Positions 1,626-32,789 of a stretch of DNA of 64,000 bases are shown in pieces (the stretch's first letter is position 1; every line of letters begins with the position of its first letter). The translations under genes were made by a program, and so were the position numbers. Location of the stretch: assembly GCA_017849435.1 (NCBI GenBank), contig JAFIGY010000019.1, positions 186,001 to 250,000 of the forward strand, given 5' to 3'. The DNA comes from Chitinophaga niabensis (lineage in GTDB: Bacteria; Bacteroidota; Bacteroidia; Chitinophagales; Chitinophagaceae). The notes beneath the pieces are model-generated. The model was given only the letters and a program-made list of their open reading frames with translations, searched no databases and was not told the origin of the DNA.

Positions 1626-2030
1626 TTAAGGTAAATGCATCACTTCTTTCATACCAGACCACGTTTGTCCTGCAGCAGCAGCGTCGGGCAGCGGTATTTG
1701 CGTGGGAGCGGTTTCCTTCCACCAACGCCGGGTTACGGAATCCGCCGCCATTTTTTTCATATCCGTTTCAAAGTTGCTGCCGGTGTACTCGAAGTAGCTG
1801 AAAAGAAAATATCTGCCGTCTATTTCCTTCAGATAAATGGAATAATTGCGGATATGACAGGCTTCAATCGTTTTGACCACACCAGGCCATACAGCAGCAT
1901 GCAAAGCTTTATAGCAGGCAATTTTTTCCGGTTTGATCCCGGTGACCATTCCGTAACGTGAAACGGATACCTGTTGCCGGCAACCGCATAACAGCAACAG
2001 GCATAACAAGAAGCAGATCGCAGTTCTCAT
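1626..2030 (-). CDS. L-rhamnose/L-fucose mutarotase-type lipoprotein (RhaM/DUF718 family)
   Basis: 134 residues. The start MRTAICFLLCLLLLCGCRQ is a lipoprotein signal peptide with a lipobox ending at Cys17. The rest matches the RhaM (DUF718) fold seen in L-rhamnose mutarotases: RYGMVTGIKPEKIACYKALH, then HAAVWPGVVKTIEACHIRNYSIYL, and a C-terminal WW pair (RRWWKE). Members interconvert alpha and beta anomers of 6-deoxyhexoses. Being the last gene of an operon with fuconate dehydratase and a fucose-type dehydrogenase, it probably acts on L-fucose in the periplasm before uptake. A lipoprotein mutarotase is unusual compared with the cytoplasmic RhaM of enterobacteria. It lies 69 bases downstream of the symporter gene. 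Confidence 0.75.
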   Translation of the reverse strand: MRTAICFLLCLLLLCGCRQQVSVSRYGMVTGIKPEKIACYKALHAAVWPGVVKTIEACHIRNYSIYLKEIDGRYFLFSYFEYTGSNFETDMKKMAADSVTRRWWKETAPTQIPLPDAAAAGQTWSGMKEVMHLP

Positions 2031-2099: not shown

Positions 2100-3725
2100 T
2101 CACCTGAAGATCCAATACAAGATCCCCATTACCAACAGCAGTAATACAGACAGGAACTTATAATTTCCCAACCCTTTCCATCCTTTACCCGTCAATGGTT
2201 CCCGAAGTGATCTCCAATACAATGTTTCACTCCGGCTATCATGTTTCACCGGAAACACAAGTGATAACACTACCTGCATCATCACACAAACCACAAACAG
2301 GTAGAATGCCATCATCATGAAAGGTATTTTCCCAAGCGGGTTATCAGGGTAGAGTTTATTGACAGCATACACTACAGCGCCCAATAATGAACCGGCCCAC
2401 AACGTGAGCTGCGCAGCCTTTGCAGAGGCCCGCCCCCAGAAAATACCCAGTAAAAAAACGCAGGTAATAGGCGGCGCAATATGCGCAATAATATCATTGA
2501 TCCCCTCAAAAAGGCTCTGATAGCGATTTAACAGCGGAAGCAATGCGATAGATAACAGCAATGCGATAGCCGCGGTCCAACGCCCTACAGTTACCAGGCG
2601 TTCGTCGGAAGTTTCCGGCCTGAAACGTTTATAGAGGTCAAAACTGGCGAGGGTGGCAATAGAGTTGAGCGCTCCCGCTATCTGGCTCATAAGACCGGAA
2701 AGAAGTGCCGCTACCAGCACGCCTACGAGTCCCCCTGGCAGCAGCTGCGTGATCATCAGGGTGTAGATGCCTTTGGTATCACCGGCGGACATGCCGGTGA
2801 TATCCAGCTTCCCTGACCGTGCCAGCGTATAGGCGAACAAGCCGGGCAGTACAAAAATAAAAACCGGTAATATTTTGATAAAGCCGCAGAAAAGCGCTCC
2901 CGCACGGGCATGATCCTCATCCCGCGCTCCCAGCACCCGCTGCACAATCGTCTGATCCGCACACCAATACCAGATGCCCAGCACAGGATATCCCAAAAAG
3001 ACGGCCAGCCACGACATGCCGGAGCTGTCGCCTGCAGGCCTTATCATACTCAGTTTGTGCAATGTGTTCTCCTGTTGCAAAACCATCGTCATCGGCCCCC
3101 AGCCTCCCATCTTGTGCCATGCAGCCACTGTAATGATCACGGCGCCGGTGATCAGTACCACGCTCTGAATAGATTCCGTTACTACTACAGCACGCAGTCC
3201 GCCGATGATGGTATATAACCCCGTTAAAGCAGCGATAACGACGATGCTTGTATACATATCTATGCCGAACAATGTTTCCAATACAATGCCGCCGGCGAGG
3301 AAAGAGAATGCAATATGAATGATGATGGCAGACAGGATGGATACGAACGCCAGCCAGTCGCGGCACGCCCGGTTATACCTCCTTTCCAGGAAATCCGGCA
3401 GCGTAGATACGCCCGAACGTATGTAGAACGGTACAAAGAACAAGGCCAGTAATACCAGCGTGAAAGCCGCCATCCATTCGAAATTCCCGTTCAGCAATCC
3501 TGAATCATAACCACTTTGCGCCAGGCTCACAAGATGAAGGCAGGAAATATTGGTAGCGAACAACGCCAGCCCGATCATGGGCCACCGCAGCGTTTTGCCT
3601 GCGAGGAAATATTGCCCCGAGGCGCCGTTAACGCCCTGTTTCCTGCGCATTCCTGACCAGAGACCGATCGTGACGATCAACAGGATGTAACAGATGGAAA
3701 TAATGATATCCGTGGAACCGATCAT
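2100..3725 (-). CDS. sodium:solute symporter (SSS/SLC5 family), probably for L-fucose
   Basis: 541 residues with about 13-14 hydrophobic segments from residue 5 to the C-terminal end (LLLLVMGILYWIF). SSS hallmarks are visible: GQYFLAGKTLRWPMIGLALFA near residue 40, ATNISCLHLVSLAQSGY, the GLYTIIGGLRAVVVTESIQ stretch near residue 170, and WYWCADQTIVQRVLGA, typical of Na+/sugar symporters. It begins 7 bases after the fuconate dehydratase stop, in the same operon. Substrate is inferred from the neighbours and not from residues; related transporters move galactose, glucose or sialic acid. Confidence 0.85.
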   Translation of the reverse strand: MIGSTDIIISICYILLIVTIGLWSGMRRKQGVNGASGQYFLAGKTLRWPMIGLALFATNISCLHLVSLAQSGYDSGLLNGNFEWMAAFTLVLLALFFVPFYIRSGVSTLPDFLERRYNRACRDWLAFVSILSAIIIHIAFSFLAGGIVLETLFGIDMYTSIVVIAALTGLYTIIGGLRAVVVTESIQSVVLITGAVIITVAAWHKMGGWGPMTMVLQQENTLHKLSMIRPAGDSSGMSWLAVFLGYPVLGIWYWCADQTIVQRVLGARDEDHARAGALFCGFIKILPVFIFVLPGLFAYTLARSGKLDITGMSAGDTKGIYTLMITQLLPGGLVGVLVAALLSGLMSQIAGALNSIATLASFDLYKRFRPETSDERLVTVGRWTAAIALLLSIALLPLLNRYQSLFEGINDIIAHIAPPITCVFLLGIFWGRASAKAAQLTLWAGSLLGAVVYAVNKLYPDNPLGKIPFMMMAFYLFVVCVMMQVVLSLVFPVKHDSRSETLYWRSLREPLTGKGWKGLGNYKFLSVLLLLVMGILYWIFR

Positions 3726-3732
3726 ATTTTAT

Positions 3733-4953
3733 CTACTTTAAATCACAGCTGCTGCCCGGCTCCTGCGGCGTAACATAAACACCCTCCTCTATCCTCACCG
3801 GATGTACGAAATGTTCTTTCAGATGCGGGATATGTTCCAGGAACAGGGCTTCATGCCCCATCGCAATGTGATTGAAAAGCACAAGATGCTGGTGCAGCTG
3901 CCCCATATCCCCTACATGCGGTACCACCGGTACCCCGAATTTTTTACAAAGGAGGCTGATGGTGATAAACTCGCTCACACCGCCCACACGCACCGCATCC
4001 ACCTGCATAAAACCGGCGCAGCCCGCCTGCAGATAGTTCTTGAACACAACCCGGTTTGGCACATGTTCCCCCAAAGCAAGCCTGACGGGCGCAATAGCCT
4101 GCGCCAGTTTTACATGCGCCTGTACATCATCCGGGTGCGTGGGTTCTTCTATCCAGTAAGGATGTATCTTCCGCAGTTCCCCGCAAATAGACACAGCCTG
4201 AGGCAGATTCCACTGCTGATTGGCATCCAGCATTACTTTTACTTCGCTGCCAACCGTTTCACGAACGATATGGGCCCTCCGGATATCTCTTTGCGGGTCC
4301 GCCGAGCCGACCTTGAGCTTCATGGCAGTGAACCCCTCATCCAGAGCTTTCCTGCAATTCATTCTCACCATCTCGTCATCGTAATTGAACCAGCCGACAG
4401 AAGTATCGTAGCCCGGATATCCTTTTTCAAGGATAGCTGCGCGGACGGGTGCGCTGTGAGCCGCTTCTTCCAGCAGTGCAATTGCCTCTTCCCGGGTAAG
4501 CACGTCTTCGAGATAGGAAAGGTCCAGCGTGTTCACAATTTCCTCCGGGCGCAGGCTGATGAGCAGCTTCCATAGCGGAACACCGCGTTTCTTTGCCCAG
4601 AGATCAAAACATGCATTGGTTACCGAAGCCAGCCCGAGATGTGTGACTCCTTTGTGCGGGCCCAGCCACCGGAACTGTTGTTCGTCCGCCAGCGACCGGA
4701 ACTTCCTTCCAAAACCGTACATCAACGCTTCAATATCTTCCCCTTTCAGCAAGTCGGCATAAAAACCGGCCGCCCTGCAAACGAGGTCGTTACCTCCCCC
4801 TAAAGTGAAGGCCAGGCCGGTACCGGTGACGCCGCCATCATCCGACAATTGCGTAACTGCGTAAGCATATTGTGGTTCAGTATGAACAGCATCGCTGCCG
4901 GCACCGCCCTTCAATTTGTATCGCTTATCACTGATCGCTATTTGGTTTATCAT
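3733..4953 (-). CDS. fucD: L-fuconate dehydratase (enolase superfamily)
   Basis: 406 residues. Converts L-fuconate to 2-keto-3-deoxy-L-fuconate in non-phosphorylating fucose catabolism. The body matches the FucD/ENOSF1 group, including RWLGPHKGVTHLGLASVTNA, DLWAKKRGVPLWKLL and EEPTHPDD. Catalytic features are in place: KxK at Lys212/Lys214 (MKLKVG), metal ligands Asp243 (DANQQW), Glu269 and Glu296 (GEHV), Asp319, and His346 (PHVGD). The protein ends shortly after VTPQEPGSS, a little earlier than the animal enzymes. The stop lies 7 bases before the symporter, and the SDR gene ends 21 bases upstream. Good confidence on the family; a rhamnonate or galactonate relative is less likely. Confidence 0.88.
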   Translation of the reverse strand: MINQIAISDKRYKLKGGAGSDAVHTEPQYAYAVTQLSDDGGVTGTGLAFTLGGGNDLVCRAAGFYADLLKGEDIEALMYGFGRKFRSLADEQQFRWLGPHKGVTHLGLASVTNACFDLWAKKRGVPLWKLLISLRPEEIVNTLDLSYLEDVLTREEAIALLEEAAHSAPVRAAILEKGYPGYDTSVGWFNYDDEMVRMNCRKALDEGFTAMKLKVGSADPQRDIRRAHIVRETVGSEVKVMLDANQQWNLPQAVSICGELRKIHPYWIEEPTHPDDVQAHVKLAQAIAPVRLALGEHVPNRVVFKNYLQAGCAGFMQVDAVRVGGVSEFITISLLCKKFGVPVVPHVGDMGQLHQHLVLFNHIAMGHEALFLEHIPHLKEHFVHPVRIEEGVYVTPQEPGSSCDLK

Positions 4954-4974: not shown

Positions 4975-5739
4975 TCAGATGAGCGCCCTGTACCCCAGCT
5001 CCGCTCCCCCGCTTACGGGCAAAATGCAACCGGTGATGAAACGCGCCATATCGCTCAAGAGAAACACGCAGGCATCGGCAATCACATCTCCGGAAGGAAT
5101 CGGACCTAAAGGCTGCAATGCATTCAGATACCGTTGCATCGCTGCACTGTCCGGCTGCTCGAGACTCCATTTCTCCAGCATGGGCGTATTCACGGCCGCC
5201 GGTGCTACTGCGTTCACACGCACGCCATACGATGCGTAATCAAGTGCCATCGCTTTCGTAAGCGCATGCACAGCTCCCTTGGTGGCCACATAGGCAGCAT
5301 GGTATTCCTGCCCGATAGTGCCCACCAGCGAACCGGTGGAAAGGATACTTCCCCGGGAAGCTTTCAGGTATGGGATGCTGTACCTGACCATCAGGTAAAT
5401 ACTTTTCAGATTCACATGGAAGAGTGCCTCCCATTCATCTTCGGTGGTTTCGTCAAGCGGACGGGAGGGATGAGCCAGGCCGGCGTTATTATGAACGGCA
5501 TCCAGCTTTCCGTATCGTTTGATCACGGCATCCACTGTTTGCGCTACATCCGTCCCCTTCGTCACATCGCAATAAAAAAAAGCATGTCCGGCGCCGTCCA
5601 GTGAAGGGAGTTTGTCGGCTCCCGACGGATTCTTATCCGCTATGCAAACGGCTGCACCAGCCCGTGCATAAGCCCTGGCACATTCCCAGCCGATACCGTC
5701 GGCTCCGCCTGTAAGGAGGATTACTTTATCTTTTAGCAT
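4975..5739 (-). CDS. SDR oxidoreductase, probable 2-keto-3-deoxy-L-fuconate dehydrogenase
   Basis: 254 residues, classical short-chain dehydrogenase. The NAD-binding TGGADGIG is at residues 10-17, NNAG at 84-87, and the catalytic Ser137, Tyr150 and Lys154 are present (STGSLVG, YVATK). An acidic residue after beta-2 (CIADKNP) suggests NAD rather than NADP. As first gene of the operon ahead of FucD, it most likely oxidises 2-keto-3-deoxy-L-fuconate, but L-fucose dehydrogenases belong to the same family and cannot be excluded. No lactonase or aldolase for the rest of the pathway lies in this window. Confidence 0.78.
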   Translation of the reverse strand: MLKDKVILLTGGADGIGWECARAYARAGAAVCIADKNPSGADKLPSLDGAGHAFFYCDVTKGTDVAQTVDAVIKRYGKLDAVHNNAGLAHPSRPLDETTEDEWEALFHVNLKSIYLMVRYSIPYLKASRGSILSTGSLVGTIGQEYHAAYVATKGAVHALTKAMALDYASYGVRVNAVAPAAVNTPMLEKWSLEQPDSAAMQRYLNALQPLGPIPSGDVIADACVFLLSDMARFITGCILPVSGGAELGYRALI

Positions 5740-5871: not shown

Positions 5872-6744
5872 ATGAAACCAGTTCGCGCCAGGATACAGGA
5901 AGAAACGCACATGGACGTATTCGCCGTGAGAATGATCAACCTCCCTTTTTTCTCTACGGAATTTCACTTTCATAAGGAATGCCAGCTGGTATATGTGGTG
6001 GAGAGCGAAGGAAGGCGCATTATCGGCGACAGCGTTGAGAATTTCAATCATGATGAACTGATATTGCTTGGGCCGGATATTCCGCACGTCTGGCACAATG
6101 ACAAAAAGTATTTTGAGGAATACAAACATGAAAACCACGCACGCTCCGTGGCATTATTCTTTGATCCGGACAAACTGCGGGAGGCCATGGCCATGTTCGG
6201 GCTTACCAGTCAGGTAGAATCCCTGCTGAGAAAAACCCGGCGGGGCATGAAGTTCTCCGGCCGAACCAAAAGCCTGCTGAAACAGCTGCTGTTCGACATG
6301 GCCAAACAGCAATATTTTGATCGGTTGATCACATTCATACGGATGCTGGAAATACTCACCCGCACCCGCGAATACCGCCTGCTGGTAAGTTCCGGATATG
6401 TGAACACCTATCAGGCAAAGGACAACGATCGTATTGACAGGGTATTCAGATATGTGCTGGAACAATTCAAGACAGACATACAGCTGAACAAAGCGGCGCA
6501 AATAGCCAACATGAGCAAGCAGGCGTTCTGCCGCTATTTCAAAAGCCGTACGCAAAAAACCTTCCTGCAATTTGTGAATGAAGTGCGCATTGGGCATGCC
6601 TGCAAACTGATGACGGACGGACATCGGCATATTGCCAGCCTCGCATACGATTCCGGGTTCAACAATCTGTCCAGCTTCAACCGCTCGTTTAAAGAAATAA
6701 AAGAAGTAACGCCGAAGGCGTACCTGAAGATGCTTTCTGCATAG
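5872..6744 (+). CDS. AraC-family transcriptional regulator of the fucose locus
   Basis: 290 residues. An N-terminal cupin-like sensor (residues 15-80, with FHFHKECQLVYVVESEGRRIIG and LLGPDIPHVWHND) is followed by two helix-turn-helix motifs at about 190-290. The second includes ASLAYDSGFNNLSSFNRSFKEIKEVTP, the AraC signature. Such proteins bind a sugar through the cupin and switch on divergent operons. It is transcribed away from the fucose catabolic operon across a 132-base gap and converges on the GH110 gene with one base between stops. Inducer is inferred to be fucose or a product of it. Confidence 0.88.
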   Translation: MKPVRARIQEETHMDVFAVRMINLPFFSTEFHFHKECQLVYVVESEGRRIIGDSVENFNHDELILLGPDIPHVWHNDKKYFEEYKHENHARSVALFFDPDKLREAMAMFGLTSQVESLLRKTRRGMKFSGRTKSLLKQLLFDMAKQQYFDRLITFIRMLEILTRTREYRLLVSSGYVNTYQAKDNDRIDRVFRYVLEQFKTDIQLNKAAQIANMSKQAFCRYFKSRTQKTFLQFVNEVRIGHACKLMTDGHRHIASLAYDSGFNNLSSFNRSFKEIKEVTPKAYLKMLSA

Positions 6745-6745
6745 C

Positions 6746-8563
6746 TCACTCCCGGATAAAAGGGCTTCCTGACCGAAGGTCACCGGAAACCATATGCTCC
6801 ATCACTACTTTCAATGGCCAGGGCAACGCTCCCGTGTTTTTCTCCATCGTTACATGACCGCAAGCTGTAAGTTGTACAGCGGGTGCAGTCCCTTTACCGG
6901 GAAGCAACGAAGAATACCCGAAACGGTTTCCGGAAAAAACCAATCCGTCCACACTCTTCGCGGTCAGCAGCGGGGTATCGAAACATTTGAACACATTGTT
7001 TTCAATCCGGATGTTGCGGTGTACAAATTTCCCTTCCTGTAAAGTATGATTCTCCGGCGCAATCGCGATCACATAACCGGCATTGTATCCGCATTCCTCA
7101 AAGCGGTTGCTGCGGATAAGTACATGGCGTACGGGACCGGATTCATACCAGCTGGCGGCATCGTCCGCGATAAGGATAGCATGCATGCCCGTCCGGAAGA
7201 ACACATTGTTCTCAATGACCACCTTTCCCCGGGTGGTTACAAGTACGCCGCGGGTGTTGGTCCGTGCGAACCGGCATCCGCGGATTTCCACATCCGGCGT
7301 CCAGGTAAGGTTTTCCACGCAATCCCCTGTCTTCCCTCCCTCCTCTGCCAGCTCCAGTGACATCTCCCGGGCGGACAACATGGTAGCGGATCGTACTTTC
7401 GTATACCCGGTGTATTGTAACGTCTTCGGATCAACGAATGCAACACTGTCTCCCGCCACGAAAGCTTCAAAGCCATAGGTTTGAGGGTGCATAAACCGGA
7501 CGGTGAGCCTGCGCGGTTCCACGGCCGTAATTTTGAGATGCGTGCCGTGTATGTTGACGGCGTCATCATGCAGGCCGGAGGTTCTGCAATCTAAAAGTCT
7601 TACCAGCCCTGCACAACCGGAGAAATGGAATGCGTCCGCGAATGAGCTGATGATGCGGCCTGATCCTTCCGCAGGCTCTACCATCACCCGCCGTAACGTT
7701 ATATTGCGGGAAAACTGGGATACGATGCCCAGTCCGTGCATATAATGCATCTTCACATCCTCCACCGTCACATTACTGCTACGGGAGATAAATGCGCCGG
7801 CATTATCCCGGTAGGGGTCACGCACGGTCAACACATCTCCCGGGTCAAAGCCTGCTTTCGTAAAATCGCCTGTGAATCGCAGTTTCCCCTCCCCCGTCTG
7901 CACCACGGGGGAAGTTTGCAGTTTCCTGAAAGAGGAATACCGCATCAGTTGTTGATCTGTTTTGAATAAAATAGCGTGAGAGGCATTCATCTTCCATCCT
8001 TCACCGTAAAACCGGATCCTGCCATCCTCGATCATATATTTTGAATCCGGGTGGATATCCGCTTCAAGAGCCGTATCTGTCACATTCCTGATCGTCAGTT
8101 CAGACATGGTAGGCCGTTCGTAATCGAACCGGACATTCCTGATGCGGATATTCGTGCTACGCAACAGTGCAAAAGAGATCATCTTGTCATGCAGAACGAT
8201 CTTCGTGTTATTTCCCTCTACCGTCACGTTCCGCATGTCTTCCAAAAGCAGGCCGATGCTTCGCTCTTTCGGCAGGCTGTCGTTTTCCGTTGCGTTGGAG
8301 ATATACAGCGTACGATGAGCGGCCCCCTCGGCCCACAGATCCACCCTTCCCCCCGGAAGCACCAACACCTTGCAGCCCTTACCGCGGCAAGCCTCCACAG
8401 CCCGGGATAACGCTGCGCTTGCGTTGCCCCTGCTATTAGTCTTCACACCAAAATCCGCGACATACAGGGTATCTCCCCGCATGCCGCCTGCAAAACAAAG
8501 TGTACTGGCCCAAAGGGCCACCATCGTGCAAATAATTCCTTTCATATTCTTCTTTTGCTTCAC
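6746..8563 (-). CDS. GH110 alpha-1,3-galactosidase (secreted)
   Basis: 605 residues with a signal peptide (MKGIICTMVALWASTLCFAGG). A right-handed parallel beta-helix follows, with repeated RNVTVEGNN, RIRNVRFDYE, NVTVEDVKMHYMHG and VEIRGCRFARTNTRGVL turns. Its motifs fit GH110, the inverting exo-alpha-1,3-galactosidases that remove terminal Gal of blood-group-B-type or linear alpha-Gal structures. Asp310 (FADAFHFSG) and the pair Asp333-Asp334 (GLHDDAVNIHG) have the spacing of the three catalytic Asp I recall for the Bacteroides and Pseudoalteromonas enzymes. Length is as usual for the family. It overlaps the upstream 814-aa gene by 4 bases, so the two are translated together. Its stop nearly touches that of the AraC gene. 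Confidence 0.85.
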   Translation of the reverse strand: MKQKKNMKGIICTMVALWASTLCFAGGMRGDTLYVADFGVKTNSRGNASAALSRAVEACRGKGCKVLVLPGGRVDLWAEGAAHRTLYISNATENDSLPKERSIGLLLEDMRNVTVEGNNTKIVLHDKMISFALLRSTNIRIRNVRFDYERPTMSELTIRNVTDTALEADIHPDSKYMIEDGRIRFYGEGWKMNASHAILFKTDQQLMRYSSFRKLQTSPVVQTGEGKLRFTGDFTKAGFDPGDVLTVRDPYRDNAGAFISRSSNVTVEDVKMHYMHGLGIVSQFSRNITLRRVMVEPAEGSGRIISSFADAFHFSGCAGLVRLLDCRTSGLHDDAVNIHGTHLKITAVEPRRLTVRFMHPQTYGFEAFVAGDSVAFVDPKTLQYTGYTKVRSATMLSAREMSLELAEEGGKTGDCVENLTWTPDVEIRGCRFARTNTRGVLVTTRGKVVIENNVFFRTGMHAILIADDAASWYESGPVRHVLIRSNRFEECGYNAGYVIAIAPENHTLQEGKFVHRNIRIENNVFKCFDTPLLTAKSVDGLVFSGNRFGYSSLLPGKGTAPAVQLTACGHVTMEKNTGALPWPLKVVMEHMVSGDLRSGSPFIRE

Positions 8564-11004
8564 TTCCCTACTACTTCTGCATTCCCACCGGCTCTGATCT
8601 CCATTTTGATCACAGGTCCGTTTTCTCCGCTATACTTCCCGTCGAAAATAATCTCGTTGCTGCCGCTCTCCAGTTCCGGCAAGGGTTTGGCCAGGTTGAT
8701 GGTCTGCAACAGCTGCCATTGTTTGTTGTACAATTTAACGGTTTTGCCATCGCAATACAGCACCTGGTTTCGTTTCAGGCTCACCGGCAGTACCAGTGCA
8801 TTCTGCTGGTTGATGGTAACGGACGGATTGTCGAATGTTACATCGGGATCACTTTCTCCTTTTGGCGCCATCGAGAGGATAAAAGATACCGGCTGCCGTG
8901 CAGCCGGGTTGTTGAAGCGGAAAGTAGAGAATACCGGTTCTCCCGGCTGCCGGACCTTTTGCTCATGCGTGAAATAAGCATTGTATATCGGCAATAACCG
9001 GTATCCCCCGCCGGGGGCCGCTTCGAGGTGAAATTCATTTTTAACGTCCTGCATCTTCAGTCGCTGTGCGTCACTGAACACTCCCTGTAAACGGGCAGTT
9101 TCCCATAGTTTGATCGCAGCCAGTATTTCATCTTTACGGCCGTGTGTTTGCAATGTTTTGATGCTGGTGGCCAAAGCAAAGCCTGCATTAAAACCGGCCC
9201 CTCTGGTCAGCATCCACTCAATATCCTCCAGCGTGGTCTCCGGCTTGAGACTGAACCAGCCAAGCATGGCCGGCATCAGGTTCCGCTGAAAGAACTTCTG
9301 ATTCCTCAGCCGCAGTTCCAGATGGCTTTCCCGGAAGCCTGCGTACCAGGGTTCGCCCCAATTCATTCTCGTATACATATGCCAGAAGAAATGCCCGGGA
9401 TTACTGGCGTCGTTGATCACCTTTCCTCTCAACTCCGGTTTCAGGTTATCATACCAGGTTTTAGTGAACAGCTGTTTACCATAATCTCCCATTCCCTCGC
9501 TCCAGCAGCCTTCAAGTCCGTCGAAAGAAATTTGCATGAGGCCGGTTTCATTGAAAAGTCTCGCGATGGTACGCGCTATTTCCTGGTCCAGCGCATGATC
9601 TCCCAAGAATACCTGGTAAGCATGGTCCATCAGTTTGCCAACGCTATCCCCTGCCCTGTGCGCCGCAGCCTGCGTTTGAAACGCACCCCGCTGGCAATTG
9701 AGCAGTTTCCACGGGGCGGATGCAGATACGGAGCCATAGCGGATGATCTCATGGCCGATCACAACGGACTTCAGGGTATTATTCCGGAACTGGTTGACGA
9801 AGGAAGTATCATCAACGGGTATCTCCTTCGCTCCCGCATCAATATTTTCCGTGAGCTTCGTATAGCCCACTTTCGCCAAACGCGCATCAGGCACAGGCGT
9901 TACGTAGGGATCGTTGGTGGTGATGAAATTGGATAACGTGTGCAGGCCCAGCCGGATATTCTCTGCACCGGCGATATCCACGCACTTCTTCATGCTGACC
10001 CAGTTTTCAGGGAATTCTTTGCTATGGAGCCTGAAATGCCCCCAGGTCTCAAACGGATCGCCGTGATACAAATACCGCAGGCCTGCCTGATGCGTAAAGG
10101 CCATCGCTTCCCTGATATTGTCAATGCCGAAGTTCATGATCAGATAAGATTCCGAAGCCTTCCTCGAAACCTTTCCCCACACGCCATCCAGCAAGGGATG
10201 CGGCAATCCTTCCGCCTGTTCTATCTTCGAGATCACCGGCAGCACGCCTGCCGTGGCAACACCAAACAAAGCGATGCTGCTGCCAACAACGCCTCCATCC
10301 TGGAATGCCGGCGCCAGATATCTGTCGTGCCCCCAATTCTCAATGATCCGGTCTTTGCTCCTGTTCCTGCAATACGCCTGCAGCATACTCCCGAAAGGAG
10401 CAGGCTTGGCTACATCCCCGCGGTATGATTGCACCGGGTCATAAGAAGGCTGAATATCGTTTTCCGCATCCGGATAACCACCGAGCGTTTTCACGTTCAG
10501 TGCCTGTATGCCAATCGCAAAATCCTTATTGCGCACAACACCTGCCACTTCCCCGATCGTATCGCCGATAGTGGTGGGATAAGGCCCCCAGAGCACCAGT
10601 TCCACATTTTCAGGGCGGGTAAGCGCCGTTAGTTCAAAGCTGATATAGTCGGCGTTCTGTTTCACTTTTACAGTAGCTTCCATCTTTCCCTCCGGCATGG
10701 GATAAGAAAGCGCCAGTTCCGATGACTGGCTCTTCCACACTAATGCGCCCGGCGCAATTATTTTACCGCGCACTTTCATGCTTAATAAAGCGGCCCGCTC
10801 TCCTGCAGGCAAATAATCTTTCTTCGATGCAAGACTCGTGAATTCCGTTAACCGGCCGGTGTTATCAAGACTCAATACACAATGCCTCGTCTGCAGTTTT
10901 ACCTGCGCAGGAACGGGTTGATCTTTACAACATAAAAAGATCAGGATCAGAATGACTGATCTCCGGAGCAATCCGTGCGTTGCTAATTTTCTATTAATGT
11001 TCAT
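8560..11004 (-). CDS. unrecognised 814-aa secreted protein, possible glycoside hydrolase
   Basis: Signal peptide at residues 1-34 (LLRRSVILILIFLCC...PAQ). A beta-sandwich-like N-terminal domain follows (about 35-250), then a region with alternating helices and strands reminiscent of a TIM barrel: YLIMNFGIDNIREAMAF, LRYLYHGDPFETWGHF, RLGLHTLSNFITTND, LMQISFDGLEGCWSEGMGDYG and NDASNPGHFFWHMY. A small insert (about 400-470) and a C-terminal beta domain (about 690-814) are also visible. Acidic residues in SFDGLEG and WSEG are candidates for catalysis. I do not recognise the family. Coupling to GH110 by a 4-base overlap suggests a partner activity on the same glycan, for example fucose or galactose release. 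It is the first gene of that two-gene operon. Confidence 0.7.
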   Translation of the reverse strand: MNINRKLATHGLLRRSVILILIFLCCKDQPVPAQVKLQTRHCVLSLDNTGRLTEFTSLASKKDYLPAGERAALLSMKVRGKIIAPGALVWKSQSSELALSYPMPEGKMEATVKVKQNADYISFELTALTRPENVELVLWGPYPTTIGDTIGEVAGVVRNKDFAIGIQALNVKTLGGYPDAENDIQPSYDPVQSYRGDVAKPAPFGSMLQAYCRNRSKDRIIENWGHDRYLAPAFQDGGVVGSSIALFGVATAGVLPVISKIEQAEGLPHPLLDGVWGKVSRKASESYLIMNFGIDNIREAMAFTHQAGLRYLYHGDPFETWGHFRLHSKEFPENWVSMKKCVDIAGAENIRLGLHTLSNFITTNDPYVTPVPDARLAKVGYTKLTENIDAGAKEIPVDDTSFVNQFRNNTLKSVVIGHEIIRYGSVSASAPWKLLNCQRGAFQTQAAAHRAGDSVGKLMDHAYQVFLGDHALDQEIARTIARLFNETGLMQISFDGLEGCWSEGMGDYGKQLFTKTWYDNLKPELRGKVINDASNPGHFFWHMYTRMNWGEPWYAGFRESHLELRLRNQKFFQRNLMPAMLGWFSLKPETTLEDIEWMLTRGAGFNAGFALATSIKTLQTHGRKDEILAAIKLWETARLQGVFSDAQRLKMQDVKNEFHLEAAPGGGYRLLPIYNAYFTHEQKVRQPGEPVFSTFRFNNPAARQPVSFILSMAPKGESDPDVTFDNPSVTINQQNALVLPVSLKRNQVLYCDGKTVKLYNKQWQLLQTINLAKPLPELESGSNEIIFDGKYSGENGPVIKMEIRAGGNAEVVGK

Positions 11005-11046: not shown

Positions 11047-11321
11047 GTACTCCATGGCTGTTTTTCGTTCAACGACGATTTTGACTATTTTTAATGGGTT
11101 ATTAACCTGTTGCCATAACTTTATTTTTTTATAATTTAATTTTATTGATACTAGATAAAATAATCTTCCTTAGATCATCCCGGTATCCACGCGCCGAAGT
11201 GGCGAGTGCAAGAAGTTTTCAGCGGAAAAGAAGAGGCAATAGAAAAGTACGCTGGCCGTTATATCTGCGAAAAACCAAAAAAGGACCTGGTCCGGTGAAG
11301 AGAAATTTTAACTATGTCAGC

Positions 11322-12758
11322 ATGAAAAAACAATCTATCAAAATGATGCTAGCTGTGGTGATAGGATTTACAATTCTGTCATGCAGGGCGAAGCATGACG
11401 TGAATCCTTCTATGTCCAACCCCGGAGACACTACTCCCGGTGTAATTGCCACTAATAAACCACTGATGAAAGATTTCATCGGGTTAAACGGGCATTTTCA
11501 GTTCAAGCCGCAACTGTACAATCAGGCATGCCGCCTCGTGCGCAATTATCACAATCTCGACTGGGATGTAAAACAACCCGGCGATCCCATCACCATTCCT
11601 GATGCAGTGAATGGTGTGGACTGGAACAATGATCTGTATAAATTCTGGAAGGAAGCAGGTTTCGAGACCGATATCTGTATACAGTTCGCCAGCCTTGGCG
11701 CGGGTGATAAATTCATTAGTGAATGGAAGGGAAAAGAACAATGGGCCTACAACTACGGCAAAACTATGTCGAAGTATTTTGGTCCCAACGGTCAGAACCT
11801 TGCCACCAGCTTCGAGGTAGGGAATGAACCGGGGCAACAGGTAGATGCGGCCACCTGGCAGATGATCTTCCGCCAGATGGCAAAGGGTCTCCGTGACGGG
11901 GATCCGAAGGCGAAGATCCTCACACCCAGTATACAGGCCCGCACAGCTGATGATTATTACCAGGATGTGCGTACCTTCTATGGCCAGCCGGACGTACTGC
12001 CGCTTTATGATGTGCTGAACGTACACACTTATCCCACTCTTCCTCAGGGTGGAGACGATCCCAATCCCTGGAACCGTACTTATCCGGAAGACACTACCAT
12101 CACTTATCTCAAGCTGATACAGGAAGTGATCAACTGGCGCAACAGCAGCGCACCCGGAAAGCAGGTGTGGGTAACGGAATTCGGGTATGACGCCTGCACG
12201 CCGGAAGCCATGCAGAAACGTAAGGATGAGTTCCTTGAAATGGACTGGCAGGGACATACAGATCTGGAACAGGCGCAATACCTGATACGTTCTTTCCTCG
12301 CTTTCGCGCCCATGGACATCAATCGTGCCTATCTGTATTACTTCAATGATGAAGACGAAGCTTCCTTCCATGCCGCATCAGGCCTTACCCGGAACTTTGT
12401 GCCGAAGATGTCTTTCTATGCAGTGAAGCAGTTCTATAACATATTAGGAGATTACCGCTTTGCCCGCATTATCAAAAAAGAATCCGGCAAAACATTTGTG
12501 TATGAATTCCGCAACGATTCCGGCGACATGATCTGGGTGGCCTGGTCACCAACCGGCGTTAAATCCTATAAAAAAGACGGATACCAGCCCAGAGAAGCAA
12601 AGGTAAGCCTGAGTGATCTTCCGGGTAAGGTGACCGGTGTAAAGGCCATGGCCACAACAGCTTCCGATCCCGGAAATGCAACATGGGATGTAAGCGGTAA
12701 CACCATCAATCTTACCATCGGCGAAAGTCCTGTATATATCTCTATCAAGAAACAATAA
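11322..12758 (+). CDS. clan GH-A glycoside hydrolase lipoprotein
   Basis: 478 residues from the ATG at 11322, chosen because it gives a clean lipoprotein signal (lipobox ILSC, Cys at residue 20). The frame is open further upstream, but that part is not protein-like. The body is a TIM-barrel hydrolase of the GH-A type: the acid/base Glu lies in FEVGNEPGQQ, a barrel strand carries VLNVHTYPTL, and the nucleophile Glu lies in VWVTEFGYD. A small beta domain closes the protein (from about residue 390). Candidate families are GH39, GH158 or a GH5 relative; no choice is safe. A GH16 laminarinase follows, which favours a beta-1,3-glucan substrate. A strong terminator follows the gene. Confidence 0.75.
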   Translation: MKKQSIKMMLAVVIGFTILSCRAKHDVNPSMSNPGDTTPGVIATNKPLMKDFIGLNGHFQFKPQLYNQACRLVRNYHNLDWDVKQPGDPITIPDAVNGVDWNNDLYKFWKEAGFETDICIQFASLGAGDKFISEWKGKEQWAYNYGKTMSKYFGPNGQNLATSFEVGNEPGQQVDAATWQMIFRQMAKGLRDGDPKAKILTPSIQARTADDYYQDVRTFYGQPDVLPLYDVLNVHTYPTLPQGGDDPNPWNRTYPEDTTITYLKLIQEVINWRNSSAPGKQVWVTEFGYDACTPEAMQKRKDEFLEMDWQGHTDLEQAQYLIRSFLAFAPMDINRAYLYYFNDEDEASFHAASGLTRNFVPKMSFYAVKQFYNILGDYRFARIIKKESGKTFVYEFRNDSGDMIWVAWSPTGVKSYKKDGYQPREAKVSLSDLPGKVTGVKAMATTASDPGNATWDVSGNTINLTIGESPVYISIKKQ

Positions 12759-12859: not shown

Positions 12860-13687
12860 ATGAATAAAACCCTGGCGGCATTGCTACTCACAGCTACGGC
12901 TTTTACAGCCTGTAAGGTCACTACCCGGTCCGGAGCGGAAAAGCATCTCTATGTTCAAAAGGAAGGACGTGAACGGAAAGCCTGGAAGCTCGTTTGGAAG
13001 GATGATTTCAATGGTCCGGTACTGGACACCTCTAAATGGACGCGCATTCCACCGGGAAAATCAGACTGGAACAAACATATGAGCACCAGTGACGCCTGTT
13101 ACCGGATGGAGAACGGCCTGCTCTATCTCCGTGGTATTGTCAATCCTGATACGTCTGCCGACAAGCGCCCTTTTATCACCGGCGGTATCTGGAGCAAAGG
13201 TAAATTCGCTTTTCAGTATGGAAGGATCGAGATACGCGCAAAGCTGGAGTGCGCCCATGGAGCGTGGCCAGCGATGTGGATGCTGGCGGAACAGAATAAA
13301 TACGGCGCATATCCGAAAAATGGAGAGATCGATATCATGGAGCATCTGAACTATGACAGCATCATTTATCAGACGACCCACTCCTACTACACCCTCAACC
13401 TGAAACAAACCAACAACCCGCCACATTACGGTACTGCCAGGCTGGATCCGCTCGCATTCAACACCTTTGGCATCAGCTGGTACCCCGACAAGATCGTATT
13501 TCAGCTCAATGGCCGGGATACTTTTACTTACCCGAGACTGAAAAACGCGGACCCGTCCCAATGGCCCTATGATCAGCCCTTCTTCCTCCTGATCGATCAG
13601 CAATTGGGGGGCAACTGGGTAGGAAAGATCAACCCTGCCGATCTCCCGGTGCAGATGGTTGTTGACTGGGTAAAGGTGTATCAATGA
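12860..13687 (+). CDS. GH16 endo-beta-1,3-glucanase (laminarinase-type) lipoprotein
   Basis: 275 residues. Lipoprotein signal with Cys18 (TATAFTACKV). A concanavalin-like GH16 fold follows: WKLVWKDDFNG at about 44, GRIEIRAKLECAHGAWPAMWML, and the catalytic signature GEIDIMEHL holding nucleophile Glu, Asp and acid/base Glu. The methionine between IDI and EH (a beta-bulge) is typical of the laminarinase branch. The C-terminus (VVDWVKVYQ) is the usual GH16 ending, so the gene is complete. It would cleave internal beta-1,3 or mixed-linkage glucan bonds on the cell surface and feed the neighbouring GH-A enzyme. Confidence 0.9.
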   Translation: MNKTLAALLLTATAFTACKVTTRSGAEKHLYVQKEGRERKAWKLVWKDDFNGPVLDTSKWTRIPPGKSDWNKHMSTSDACYRMENGLLYLRGIVNPDTSADKRPFITGGIWSKGKFAFQYGRIEIRAKLECAHGAWPAMWMLAEQNKYGAYPKNGEIDIMEHLNYDSIIYQTTHSYYTLNLKQTNNPPHYGTARLDPLAFNTFGISWYPDKIVFQLNGRDTFTYPRLKNADPSQWPYDQPFFLLIDQQLGGNWVGKINPADLPVQMVVDWVKVYQ

Positions 13688-29298: not shown

Positions 29299-30900
29299 TT
29301 AGAGTGCCCCATCAATCCTGAAAACCGCCGTGTATCCTTCACCGGATGCCGCCGGTATCATTATGCGCAACTCATCATCCCCCTGTTTAAAATCAATTTT
29401 CTGTTTACTGCCCAATAAGCGGACTTCCGTTACTTTCCCGGGAGTATATGCAGACCTCAAACCCAGAGAAGGAATAACCAGTTCGCCGGCAGCAGGTTTT
29501 AGCACAAATACATAAAGGTGCTTCCCTTTAACGGTAAACCGGACCTCCCGGCTGGAATAAGGAGGGCTTGCAATCGTGCGTTCATTGAAATCCTCCGCTG
29601 CCCCTTGTTTCTTTGAAGCCTCCGCATCTGTTATGCTGACCTCTCTTGTACGTACAATTCCGTTTAAATTATCTCCAAATATCTTCCATGGAGTAGACGC
29701 ATAAATGGCCTCTTTGTTGCGGTTCATCCACCTTCCGATGGTATCCAGTATCCTTTTATGATCCGCCGGGATCGTTCCGTCCGGCAACAGTTCCACATTT
29801 AAAAGCAAATTGCCGTTCTTGCTGATCATGTCCGTAAAAGATTCGATCACCGTTCTGGCATTGTGGCGGGAAGGAACATCCTTTTTATAGAACCAATGTG
29901 TAAAGGTCATGGTACCCTGCCAGGGATAGGGCAATATCCCGGATGCTCCTCCCCGTTCGATGTCTCTCAGTACCATGGGCTCATTGTTGATTTTACCCGC
30001 TACCACTACGGACAGATTCTTGTGCTTTTGCAAATGATAGTTCAAAAAGGCCGCGCTTGCTTCCTTACCATAGTTGCCGTAAGGAAATCCGTACCCATCA
30101 AACCAAAGCATGTCAATATCATATTTCGTTGCCAGTTCCACATGACGTTCCAGCCAATTCTTCTTCACGCCTTCTATCCACTCTTTTGTCCTTTTTTCAG
30201 GCGGTAGTCCGTAGAGATCCGCCGGATCCAGTCCTTCCCACCACTTGCCCGTTCCATCGGCCCGGGTGAGATACCCGTCATACTTCACGCCCTTCTTTGG
30301 GCCGGAGGTATCGGCGCCAAAAGCGGGCAGCCACCAGCTCAGGAACCGGTCGTCATGAGAGCTGACGCCAAAAGGGATATGGTACTTCGCGGCCGATTCC
30401 CGGAACAAACCGATGATATCCTTATGTGGACCAACATTCACCGAGTTCCAGGCATGATGGGTTGAATTAAAGTTATCAAAATGATCATGATGAGCAGACA
30501 GCGCGACAAAATACCGTGCGCCGATACTTTTGAAGTAAGCCATCAGGGCATCTGTATTCAGCTTTTCCGCTTTCCACTCATGGATTACATCTTTAAATCC
30601 TTTTTCAGAGGGATGGCCGAAATGGCGTAAATGATATGGATACGCGTTAGCACCGAACTTCTCCCCGCCTACGTTCTGCATATACATATGCCGCGCATAC
30701 CATCCGCCACCGCTATCCGGCAGCGTTTGCGCTCCCCAATGCACCCAGATGCCCAGCTTTGCTTCCGTAAACCATTTAGGGAACTGATACTGTTTCGTCA
30801 ATTGCTCCCAGCTTTGCTGTTGCGCATAGGCATGCGAAGCCAGCTGCATCATAACAATGAGGCATAAGAGCCGATGGTTTTTTCTCTTTATTCCTTTCAT
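29299..30900 (-). CDS. GH29 alpha-L-fucosidase (secreted)
   Basis: 533 residues from the ATG at 30900; the frame also has a TTG codon at 30909. Signal peptide to about residue 26 (MMQLASHAYAQQQ). GH29 hallmarks: WFTEAKLGIWVHWGAQTLPD, RYFVALSAHHDHFDNFNS, and the nucleophile Asp in DMLWFDGYGFPYG. A C-terminal beta-domain (about 430-533) is present. Retaining enzyme that releases terminal L-fucose. Five bases separate it from the GH97 gene upstream, so the two are co-translated. Which linkage (alpha-1,2, 1,3, 1,4 or 1,6) cannot be read from sequence. Confidence 0.9.
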   Translation of the reverse strand: MKGIKRKNHRLLCLIVMMQLASHAYAQQQSWEQLTKQYQFPKWFTEAKLGIWVHWGAQTLPDSGGGWYARHMYMQNVGGEKFGANAYPYHLRHFGHPSEKGFKDVIHEWKAEKLNTDALMAYFKSIGARYFVALSAHHDHFDNFNSTHHAWNSVNVGPHKDIIGLFRESAAKYHIPFGVSSHDDRFLSWWLPAFGADTSGPKKGVKYDGYLTRADGTGKWWEGLDPADLYGLPPEKRTKEWIEGVKKNWLERHVELATKYDIDMLWFDGYGFPYGNYGKEASAAFLNYHLQKHKNLSVVVAGKINNEPMVLRDIERGGASGILPYPWQGTMTFTHWFYKKDVPSRHNARTVIESFTDMISKNGNLLLNVELLPDGTIPADHKRILDTIGRWMNRNKEAIYASTPWKIFGDNLNGIVRTREVSITDAEASKKQGAAEDFNERTIASPPYSSREVRFTVKGKHLYVFVLKPAAGELVIPSLGLRSAYTPGKVTEVRLLGSKQKIDFKQGDDELRIMIPAASGEGYTAVFRIDGAL

Positions 30901-30905
30901 ATATA

Positions 30906-32789
30906 TCAATTAACCGGCCTTAACCAGATCGCCTCCCCTCCGGACGGAAGCAGGCGACCGTTTAAAACAGTGGATGCATCTACCGTCATTTGCTTCATCG
31001 ATACTTTTGTGCGTACCGGGGATGCGGGGTCATCGTAATAAATAGTGGCTTTATATTTCCGGCCGGGAGTTAAAAATGAGCAGTTTATTTTCAGATCCCG
31101 GGCATCGTTATTCGTGATACTTCCAACGAACCATTCGTTATTGCTTTTACGGGCGACGCTGATGTATTGCCCGATTTCGCCATCCAGCACTTTTGTATCA
31201 TCCCACACCGTTGGCACACGGTCAAAAAATTCCAGCTCCGGCTCTTCCTGTGAATCCTCCGGTTTATCATACCAGTACATAAACTGCAACGGGCTGTAAT
31301 AAACAACGGATAAAGCCATCTGGTGCACCGATGTGGTTTTCAGTACCTTCTTATTCTGCGTTTCTGCCAGTCGTTTCTTTAATTCCGGTCTGTGGTAATA
31401 GCAGATCGTGTAATCCGCCGGGCCGCACAGGAACCGGGTAAAAGGCAGCACCGTGTTATGGGTGGCGTCCGGCATTTCCTCATTGCCCCTTATCCCTTCC
31501 TGCGTAAGCAGGTTCGGATAAGTACGGCTAAATCCGGTAGGCCGGTACTCGTCATGGATATCTACCATTAAATGATGCTGCGCACATTTCTTAACAGCAT
31601 CGTGCAGCCATTTGGTCCACGTAAACGATCCTACATTCACGAAACCGAATTTGATACCTGCGATGCCCCATTTCTCGTACAGCGGCAGCACCTCATCCAG
31701 TTGCCGCTGCAGCGCTTTTTTATTGAGGTATAAAAACACGCCAATACCTTTTTGTTTAGCATAGCGGATTACCTCCTGCAGGTCCAGGTCATTCACCGGG
31801 TTCCGGCGGGGGTCTACATTTACGCGGGTTGCATCTGCCGCCGCATCTTCCTCATAACCATACCAGCCGGCATCAAAATGAATGTACTGCAGATGCCGCT
31901 TTACGGCAAAGTCCACCACATCCTTTGCCCCTTTTGTTGACAACGACATTTCTCTGATGACCTTACCCGGCTTGATCCAGCCCGTGTTCCTGATCGCGCA
32001 GGGCGGATTCAGGTTCAGCAGCAGATCGTTATTCTGCAAAAGCTGCGTTGGCTTTGCAGCCAGCATGATCACCCTCCATGGAGTGGCAAAGGGCGTTGCC
32101 AGCACCACCTTATCATACATGGCACAGGCAATTGTATTGGGTTTGGAAGGATGCAAAACGAATTTTGTTCTGCAGTAATCCACCACCTCCGCCTCCGCCA
32201 GCGATGCATATAAACCGTTGGGCAATTTCAGGGTCAGCGGGCGCTCCGCTTCGTCAGGCCATTTATCTAAAGACAACAACTGATAGCTGCCCTGCGCACG
32301 GTTCGTAAACCATGCTTTGGTATCAGCCGGGAGGGAGAACTCCGTCAGGTCCTTACTGATCGTGATTTCGTTTGTTCCGGAAGATCCACCGGGAAAAGAA
32401 TAACGGAAAGCGACCCCTTCATTATAAGCCCGTACCTCGATCTGCATAGATTCATTCGATCCTGCGTTCTTCATAAATGTAAAGAACAATGCCCGATAGC
32501 GGTCACGGATGCGATTCCTTTCCCCATAAACCGGTTTCCAGAGATCATCCTTTGATGCAGCCCGTACCGCCTTCAGCCTTAAACCGTTTTGCCAGCCTTC
32601 AAGCCCCAGTGCGGATCCTTTCATAACCTCCTTCTGCTGAAAGGATACATCATAGTGGAGAGCACCATCCACGGTAACGGACAAACGAAACTGTACGCTT
32701 CCATCCGGTGACTTTAATACAGATGGGGCTTGCGCAATGGCTTCAACCGTTGTGATCGACAATAAAATAAAAAAAACAAGTCTGTTCAT
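30906..32789 (-). CDS. GH97 alpha-galactosidase (retaining type)
   Basis: 627 residues with signal peptide (residues 1-20). The N-terminal GH97 beta-sandwich (about 22-275) precedes a TIM barrel (HFDAGWYGYEED, GVFLYLNKKAL, WGIAGIKFGFVN) and a C-terminal beta domain ending about 627. GH97 splits into inverting alpha-glucosidases and retaining alpha-galactosidases. In the latter an Asp sits in the IHDEYRP motif; here it is Asp413, matching the nucleophile position I recall as Asp415 of the Bacteroides thetaiotaomicron enzyme. So an alpha-galactosidase is likely. First full-length gene of the operon with GH29; a 43-codon signal-peptide ORF lies just upstream. Confidence 0.87.
   Translation of the reverse strand: MNRLVFFILLSITTVEAIAQAPSVLKSPDGSVQFRLSVTVDGALHYDVSFQQKEVMKGSALGLEGWQNGLRLKAVRAASKDDLWKPVYGERNRIRDRYRALFFTFMKNAGSNESMQIEVRAYNEGVAFRYSFPGGSSGTNEITISKDLTEFSLPADTKAWFTNRAQGSYQLLSLDKWPDEAERPLTLKLPNGLYASLAEAEVVDYCRTKFVLHPSKPNTIACAMYDKVVLATPFATPWRVIMLAAKPTQLLQNNDLLLNLNPPCAIRNTGWIKPGKVIREMSLSTKGAKDVVDFAVKRHLQYIHFDAGWYGYEEDAAADATRVNVDPRRNPVNDLDLQEVIRYAKQKGIGVFLYLNKKALQRQLDEVLPLYEKWGIAGIKFGFVNVGSFTWTKWLHDAVKKCAQHHLMVDIHDEYRPTGFSRTYPNLLTQEGIRGNEEMPDATHNTVLPFTRFLCGPADYTICYYHRPELKKRLAETQNKKVLKTTSVHQMALSVVYYSPLQFMYWYDKPEDSQEEPELEFFDRVPTVWDDTKVLDGEIGQYISVARKSNNEWFVGSITNNDARDLKINCSFLTPGRKYKATIYYDDPASPVRTKVSMKQMTVDASTVLNGRLLPSGGEAIWLRPVN

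Follow-up and report, generated by a model that had tools for sequence, protein, structure and literature searches.

Alpha-galactosidases and alpha-N-acetylgalactosaminidases (alpha-GalNAcases) of the glycoside hydrolase (GH) families GH36 and GH27 form clan GH-D, and the alpha-L-fucosidases of GH29 have their nucleophile, an Asp, where barrel strand 4 ends. A gene whose family is proposed to be related to GH29, GH36, GH27 and GH31 was identified in a 64,000-nucleotide stretch of Chitinophaga niabensis (assembly GCA_017849435.1, contig JAFIGY010000019.1, positions 186,001 to 250,000), which is called the window here and to which the coordinates of its genes refer. The gene (8560..11004, minus strand) encoded a predicted exported protein of 814 residues, named T in the following. 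That T belongs to a family of retaining alpha-glycosidases missing from the libraries searched is well supported, and T likely acts on fucosylated glycans. The fuller proposal, that T is a retaining alpha-glycosidase of an unclassified family working in enzyme sets which dismantle such glycans, is somewhat favoured by us over its rivals.

The reading frame started with ATG, contained no internal stop and is not a chance one, since 274 of 287 stretches matched by peptide pattern in a one-genome-per-species collection encoded relatives, and the best 80, which were kept, aligned over most of their length with 45-68% identity. By record titles the family spanned Bacteroidota, Verrucomicrobia, Planctomycetes, Calditrichaeota, Gemmatimonadota and other lineages, and its profile matched in 18 of 147 genomes searched from the host's own family. 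Alignment A1 covered 43 of the 80 loci, with L091 probably lying on the same contig as L019. Alignment of the profile-search matches separated subfamily A, to which T belongs, from at least four others (B to E). In addition, two distant, unannotated relatives (30% identical) were observed in the actinomycete (Embleya) plasmid records L201 and L202 of a plasmid collection.

T had no match in either Pfam or NCBIfam, which agrees with an earlier note on this DNA, made from the letters alone, that could place the protein in no known glycoside hydrolase family. The family profile matched no PDB sequence, and no description of the family was found among literature titles and the opening parts of abstracts. 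The family is absent from the copies of Pfam and NCBIfam searched, and its novelty stands against these and not against CAZy/dbCAN. When 44 members were scanned with Pfam at E 0.1, weak matches to the xylose-isomerase-like TIM barrel (18 of 44, best E 0.00025) and to GH71 (2 of 44) were taken as likeness of the barrel only, and matches in a viral library were also weak.

The domain order put forward in the earlier note was recovered in the AlphaFold2 (AF2) model, in which strands were assigned by DSSP. Residues 1-34 (10903..11004, minus) form a probable export signal, judged from the hydropathy plot, which shows a charged start and then hydrophobic residues from about 11 to 27, and from a helix at 8-27 in the model. 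The N-terminal beta domain (residues about 33-250, 10255..10908, minus) was taken in by the GH36 whole-chain alignments, which began at residue 31-35 of T. It was followed by a TIM barrel (residues about 255-660, 9025..10242, minus), for which fold comparison with the predicted structure gave a TIM-barrel glycosidase fold, and by a C-terminal beta domain (residues 662-814, 8563..9021, minus). Between strands 3 and 4 the barrel was interrupted by a further beta domain, which the note had missed (residues about 378-470, 9595..9873, minus). Phage distal tail proteins gave weak structural matches that were noted for this inserted domain. Some members also matched phage-tail beta domains weakly in Pfam (Rcc01698_C in 13 of 44, best E 0.00063), and in L078, the only member whose match position was seen, the match fell on residues 511-552. 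Residues 661-814 alone had no Pfam match at E 0.01, while WD40/beta-propeller matches in the PDB were set aside, as they covered stretches of only 19-20 residues in the C-terminal domain and the family profile matched no PDB sequence.

Two acids are predicted to be catalytic from the model and conservation. The first, D495 (9520-9522, minus), lies in SFDGLEG (residues 493-499, 9508..9528, minus) and ends barrel strand 4; it was kept in all 81 subfamily A proteins and in 18 further ones (2 of 2 additional A-type copies and 16 of 16 proteins of subfamilies B-E). The second, E551 (9352-9354, minus), lies in NWGEPWY (residues 548-554, 9343..9363, minus), directly after a short strand of two residues (546-547) that we read as barrel strand 6 of the model, and it was kept in all the A, B, C and D proteins aligned, the further A-type copies included. 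The earlier note had looked for the acids in SFDGLEG, which was borne out by D495, and in WSEG, which was abandoned: the family consensus there is WSTG and the column was not among the conserved ones, so E551 fits better as the second acid. Subfamily A had both S493 and D532 in 81 of 81 proteins, whereas D493 was present in all 16 proteins of B-E and position 532 was G, C, T or M; this swap may mark a switch of substrate.

That T is not a hydrolase at all, being a binding protein or an enzyme which lost its activity, appears very unlikely. E551 was lost in three of four subfamily E proteins and no assay is known to us, but the acids were invariant in subfamily A over several phyla, as were several aromatics in the barrel, which makes a dead enzyme unlikely. 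The host's own genome carried one distant family member outside the window with 25-29% identity. It belonged to subfamily E, was located on the same contig (G000:C13:176167-178392; L084 8117-10396) and had N at the column aligned to E551.

Family, predicted fold, conservation and neighbours were computed; for catalysis, mechanism, substrate and order of action we infer the following scheme for the favoured alpha-glycosidase. Judged from position and conservation, D495 would act as the nucleophile on the anomeric carbon, with E551 serving first as acid and then as base. T would act together with the galactosidase encoded by the adjoining GH110 gene on a glycan bearing alpha-galactose next to fucose, and the freed fucose would be oxidised by the enzymes of a neighbouring operon.

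The neighbourhoods of the relatives were drawn as gene runs for 79 loci (L067 was lost), many of which ended at contig ends. A GH29 or GH95 fucosidase was present in 13 of them. L-fucose catabolic genes were located within 8 kb in 4 of the 80 loci (L030, L035, L066 and, with the lactonase alone, L036); in L030 and L066 both FucP and L-fucose dehydrogenase scored above their curated cut-offs. In a Phycisphaerales metagenome-assembled genome (MAG), a single reading frame joined a T-family protein to an entire GH29 alpha-L-fucosidase domain (L025 5611-9354, 1247 aa). By ORF length this was the only fusion in the 80 loci, no other was found in 246 genomes of that MAG's phylum, and for a fusion known from one contig a chimeric assembly keeps a slight probability. 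In L150, a further A-type locus, genes for GH20, GH29 and T stood in line. Among 67 scanned neighbours the commonest were GH29 (7), F5/8 domains (6) and sulfatase (5), with GH95 in 3. These 67 were hand-picked from 154, mostly as the closest gene on either side that encoded 200 aa or more; T paralogues, many near-duplicate loci (e.g. L011, L016, L035, L046, L047, L054, L072) and a few others (e.g. L006, L029, one side of L022, L042, L063) were left out.

Two families were also seen repeatedly near T. One of about 690 aa, which had no Pfam model, was near or beside T in 9 of 79 runs (e.g. L047 5798-7870) and was GH36-like by profile (95.5%, E 1.4e-8). Another of 928-1018 aa was downstream of T in 6 of 80 loci, directly in 5 (e.g. 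L061 10443-13322); its only Pfam match, to GH97, was weak and did not reach the cut-off.

Several observations weigh against the favoured proposal of an alpha-glycosidase working on fucosylated glycans. To our knowledge no activity has been described for any T-family member, and E551 was kept in just one of four subfamily E proteins. Neither GH29 nor GH95 was found in 66 of the 79 gene runs. A fucose gene was present in 16 of 80 T loci versus 3 of 20 GH36 control loci, a rough control as the loci differ in length and taxonomy; an excess at T loci was not shown, and what carries the neighbourhood argument is therefore the tight linkage together with the fusion. Loci of subfamilies B-E had no fucose gene (0 of 17), one of them (L147) containing a 22% GH95-like stretch below cut-off. 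The own genome held 16 GH29 and 5 GH95 matches, by which a genome without other fucosidases was ruled out, and T is therefore not needed as a fucosidase. Some GH110 enzymes were reported as inactive on the B antigen (PMC7939477).

Neighbours such as GH20, GH123, GH38, GH92 and sulfatases also weigh against the proposed role, since they point to other sugars. They favour an endo-acting or other-sugar alpha-glycosidase, with a GH101-like endo cut or a modified sugar and five subfamilies differing in substrate, which we consider improbable. The variety of these neighbours, with GH38/GH92 in Chitinophaga, would suit it, as would the restriction of S493 and D532 to subfamily A, the 16 proteins of B-E having D493 and no acid at 532. 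Its likeness to GH101 is weighed below.

In the window, the gene next to that of the favoured alpha-glycosidase T encoded a GH110-like alpha-1,3-galactosidase (P0002, 6746..8563, minus). The assignment made in the earlier note was confirmed by Pfam GLAA-B barrels and a beta helix and by homology to solved relatives, some named alpha-1,3-galactosidase B, where E reached 4.5e-84, and others glycoside hydrolase family 110. The four-base overlap with the T gene (GTGA, 8560-8563) holds only if the GH110 gene starts with GTG at 8563; with the alternative ATG six codons on (8545) the genes are separated by 14 bases instead, and the signal sequence looks cleaner by eye. The special coupling of both genes suggested by that note turned out weak: GH110 was present in 2 of 79 gene runs and within 8 kb of T in 2 of 80 loci, and it was rejected as an obligate partner.

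An L-fucose operon beside this pair, also expected from the note, is well supported, because L-fuconate dehydratase and mutarotase are the closest solved relatives of two of its products and a third resembles HSD17B14. The genes, all on the minus strand, encoded a short-chain dehydrogenase/reductase (SDR; 4975..5739), a probable L-fucose dehydrogenase with HSD17B14 as closest solved relative; an L-fuconate dehydratase (3733..4953), with E about 1e-102 to solved L-fuconate dehydratases and 4e-108 to mitochondrial enolase superfamily member 1; a sodium:solute symporter assigned by Pfam (2100..3725); and an L-fucose mutarotase of the RhaM family (1626..2030, E 1.1e-29). The SDR scored 161.8 of the 300 bits required by the NCBIfam FucosDh cut-off, i.e. 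below it. HSD17B14 was shown to be an L-fucose dehydrogenase (PMC11293516). An AraC-family regulator (5872..6744, plus) stood between the T/GH110 pair and this second minus-strand group; its gene converges with that of GH110 and is transcribed away from the fucose operon. Elsewhere in the window, a GH29 alpha-L-fucosidase gene, one of the genome's 16 GH29 matches, was located at 29299-30909 (minus; PF01120, E 2.6e-69). Of two divergent plus-strand genes upstream of T, one (11145-12758) matched a glycosidase barrel at the borderline and the other (12860-13687) matched GH16.

As the Pfam and NCBIfam copies searched contain no model that matches the widespread and conserved family of T, its members are likely left hypothetical by automatic annotation. 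Trimming sugars from fucose-bearing glycans, the role predicted for T, is a step required for complex glycan breakdown; if T performs it, a gap would be filled in models for the breakdown of mucin-, glycolipid- and fucan-type glycans, and T could serve in glycan editing. The predicted pair D495/E551 and the fused GH29 relative give a direct handle on its function.

Compared with known families, the barrel of T had its best profile match in GH29 (PF01120, 75-79%). The His-x-x-x-Phe-x-x-Trp stretch of T aligned with KHHDGFALW of GH29, so that YHGDPFETW was placed at the strand-2 KHHDGF motif; the first His was kept in 77 of 81 proteins and the Phe and the Trp in 81 of 81 each, while the second His was not kept, and the HWG motif was missing by eye. 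T also differs from GH29 in its N-terminal and inserted beta domains. The combination of N-terminal beta domain and barrel fits the GH29 architecture less well and is closer to GH36, GH31 and GH101, and the profile matches spanned about 60-85 columns around strands 1-3, short of D495 and E551; both points add to those against the favoured proposal. None of the 44 members matched PF01120, and no GH29 chain was among the fold-comparison matches listed, Foldseek included, a GH29 fold being still possible.

The TIM barrel could be superposed on GH36/GH27 with 7-13% identity, while the GH36 Pfam family PF02065 matched none of the 44 members. T might instead take alpha-linked D-galactose, GalNAc or galactosamine off the same fucosylated glycans in a GH27/GH36-like manner and so complement GH110, for example at an A-antigen-like cap beside fucose. 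This is rather doubtful: the 13 GH36 proteins compared all share the DDGW stretch and, at the nucleophile, K-W-D, where T has YHGDPF and S-F-D instead (S493 in 81 of 81), a pairing made by barrel position and not by an alignment covering both, and the nearer profile was that of GH29. Because of these absent sugar-binding motifs and the nearest profile, L-fucose is placed slightly ahead; alpha-L-fucose is our tentative choice for the sugar removed, its chance falling a little short of even, and alpha-D-galactose or GalNAc comes behind it as a weaker candidate.

GH101 ranked first in Foldseek with the whole model, which favours the endo-acting rival, and ZgGH129 was listed too. The GH101 matches, however, superposed long multidomain chains with an rmsd of about 20 A, and PF12905 matched none of the 44 members; a search for GH101 gave matches in 5 of 148 genomes of the phylum, all below cut-off. 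GH129 (PF11308) likewise matched 0 of 44. Its profile, made from 12 GH129-family proteins after leaving out L180, L182, L200 (wrong strand) and partial or unneeded loci, gave 0.2-9% with T, the 9% coming from the N-terminal domain and nothing from the barrel. Searching 148 genomes of the phylum for GH129 brought up no match, but no control genome scored either, so this search was uninformative. For the GH31 alpha-glucosidases/sulfoquinovosidases, the profile comparison gave 0.2-0.3% from just four proteins, and no GH31 Pfam match was seen in the 44 members. The barrel-only model matched pyruvate kinase, which was not among the matches listed in a separate fold comparison; this likeness probably came from the beta domain inserted after strand 3, a feature that pyruvate kinase also has.

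Besides the profile match, GH29 resembles T in the strand-4 Asp, which in T is the predicted nucleophile, and is tied to it by the genomic links and the fusion. T could speculatively found a new family that links GH29 alpha-L-fucosidases to GH36/GH27 galactosidases, i.e. a fucosidase with GH36-like architecture and a rewired pocket (S493/D532 in A versus D493 in the other four), partnered by GH110, by the GH36-like family or by a fused GH29.
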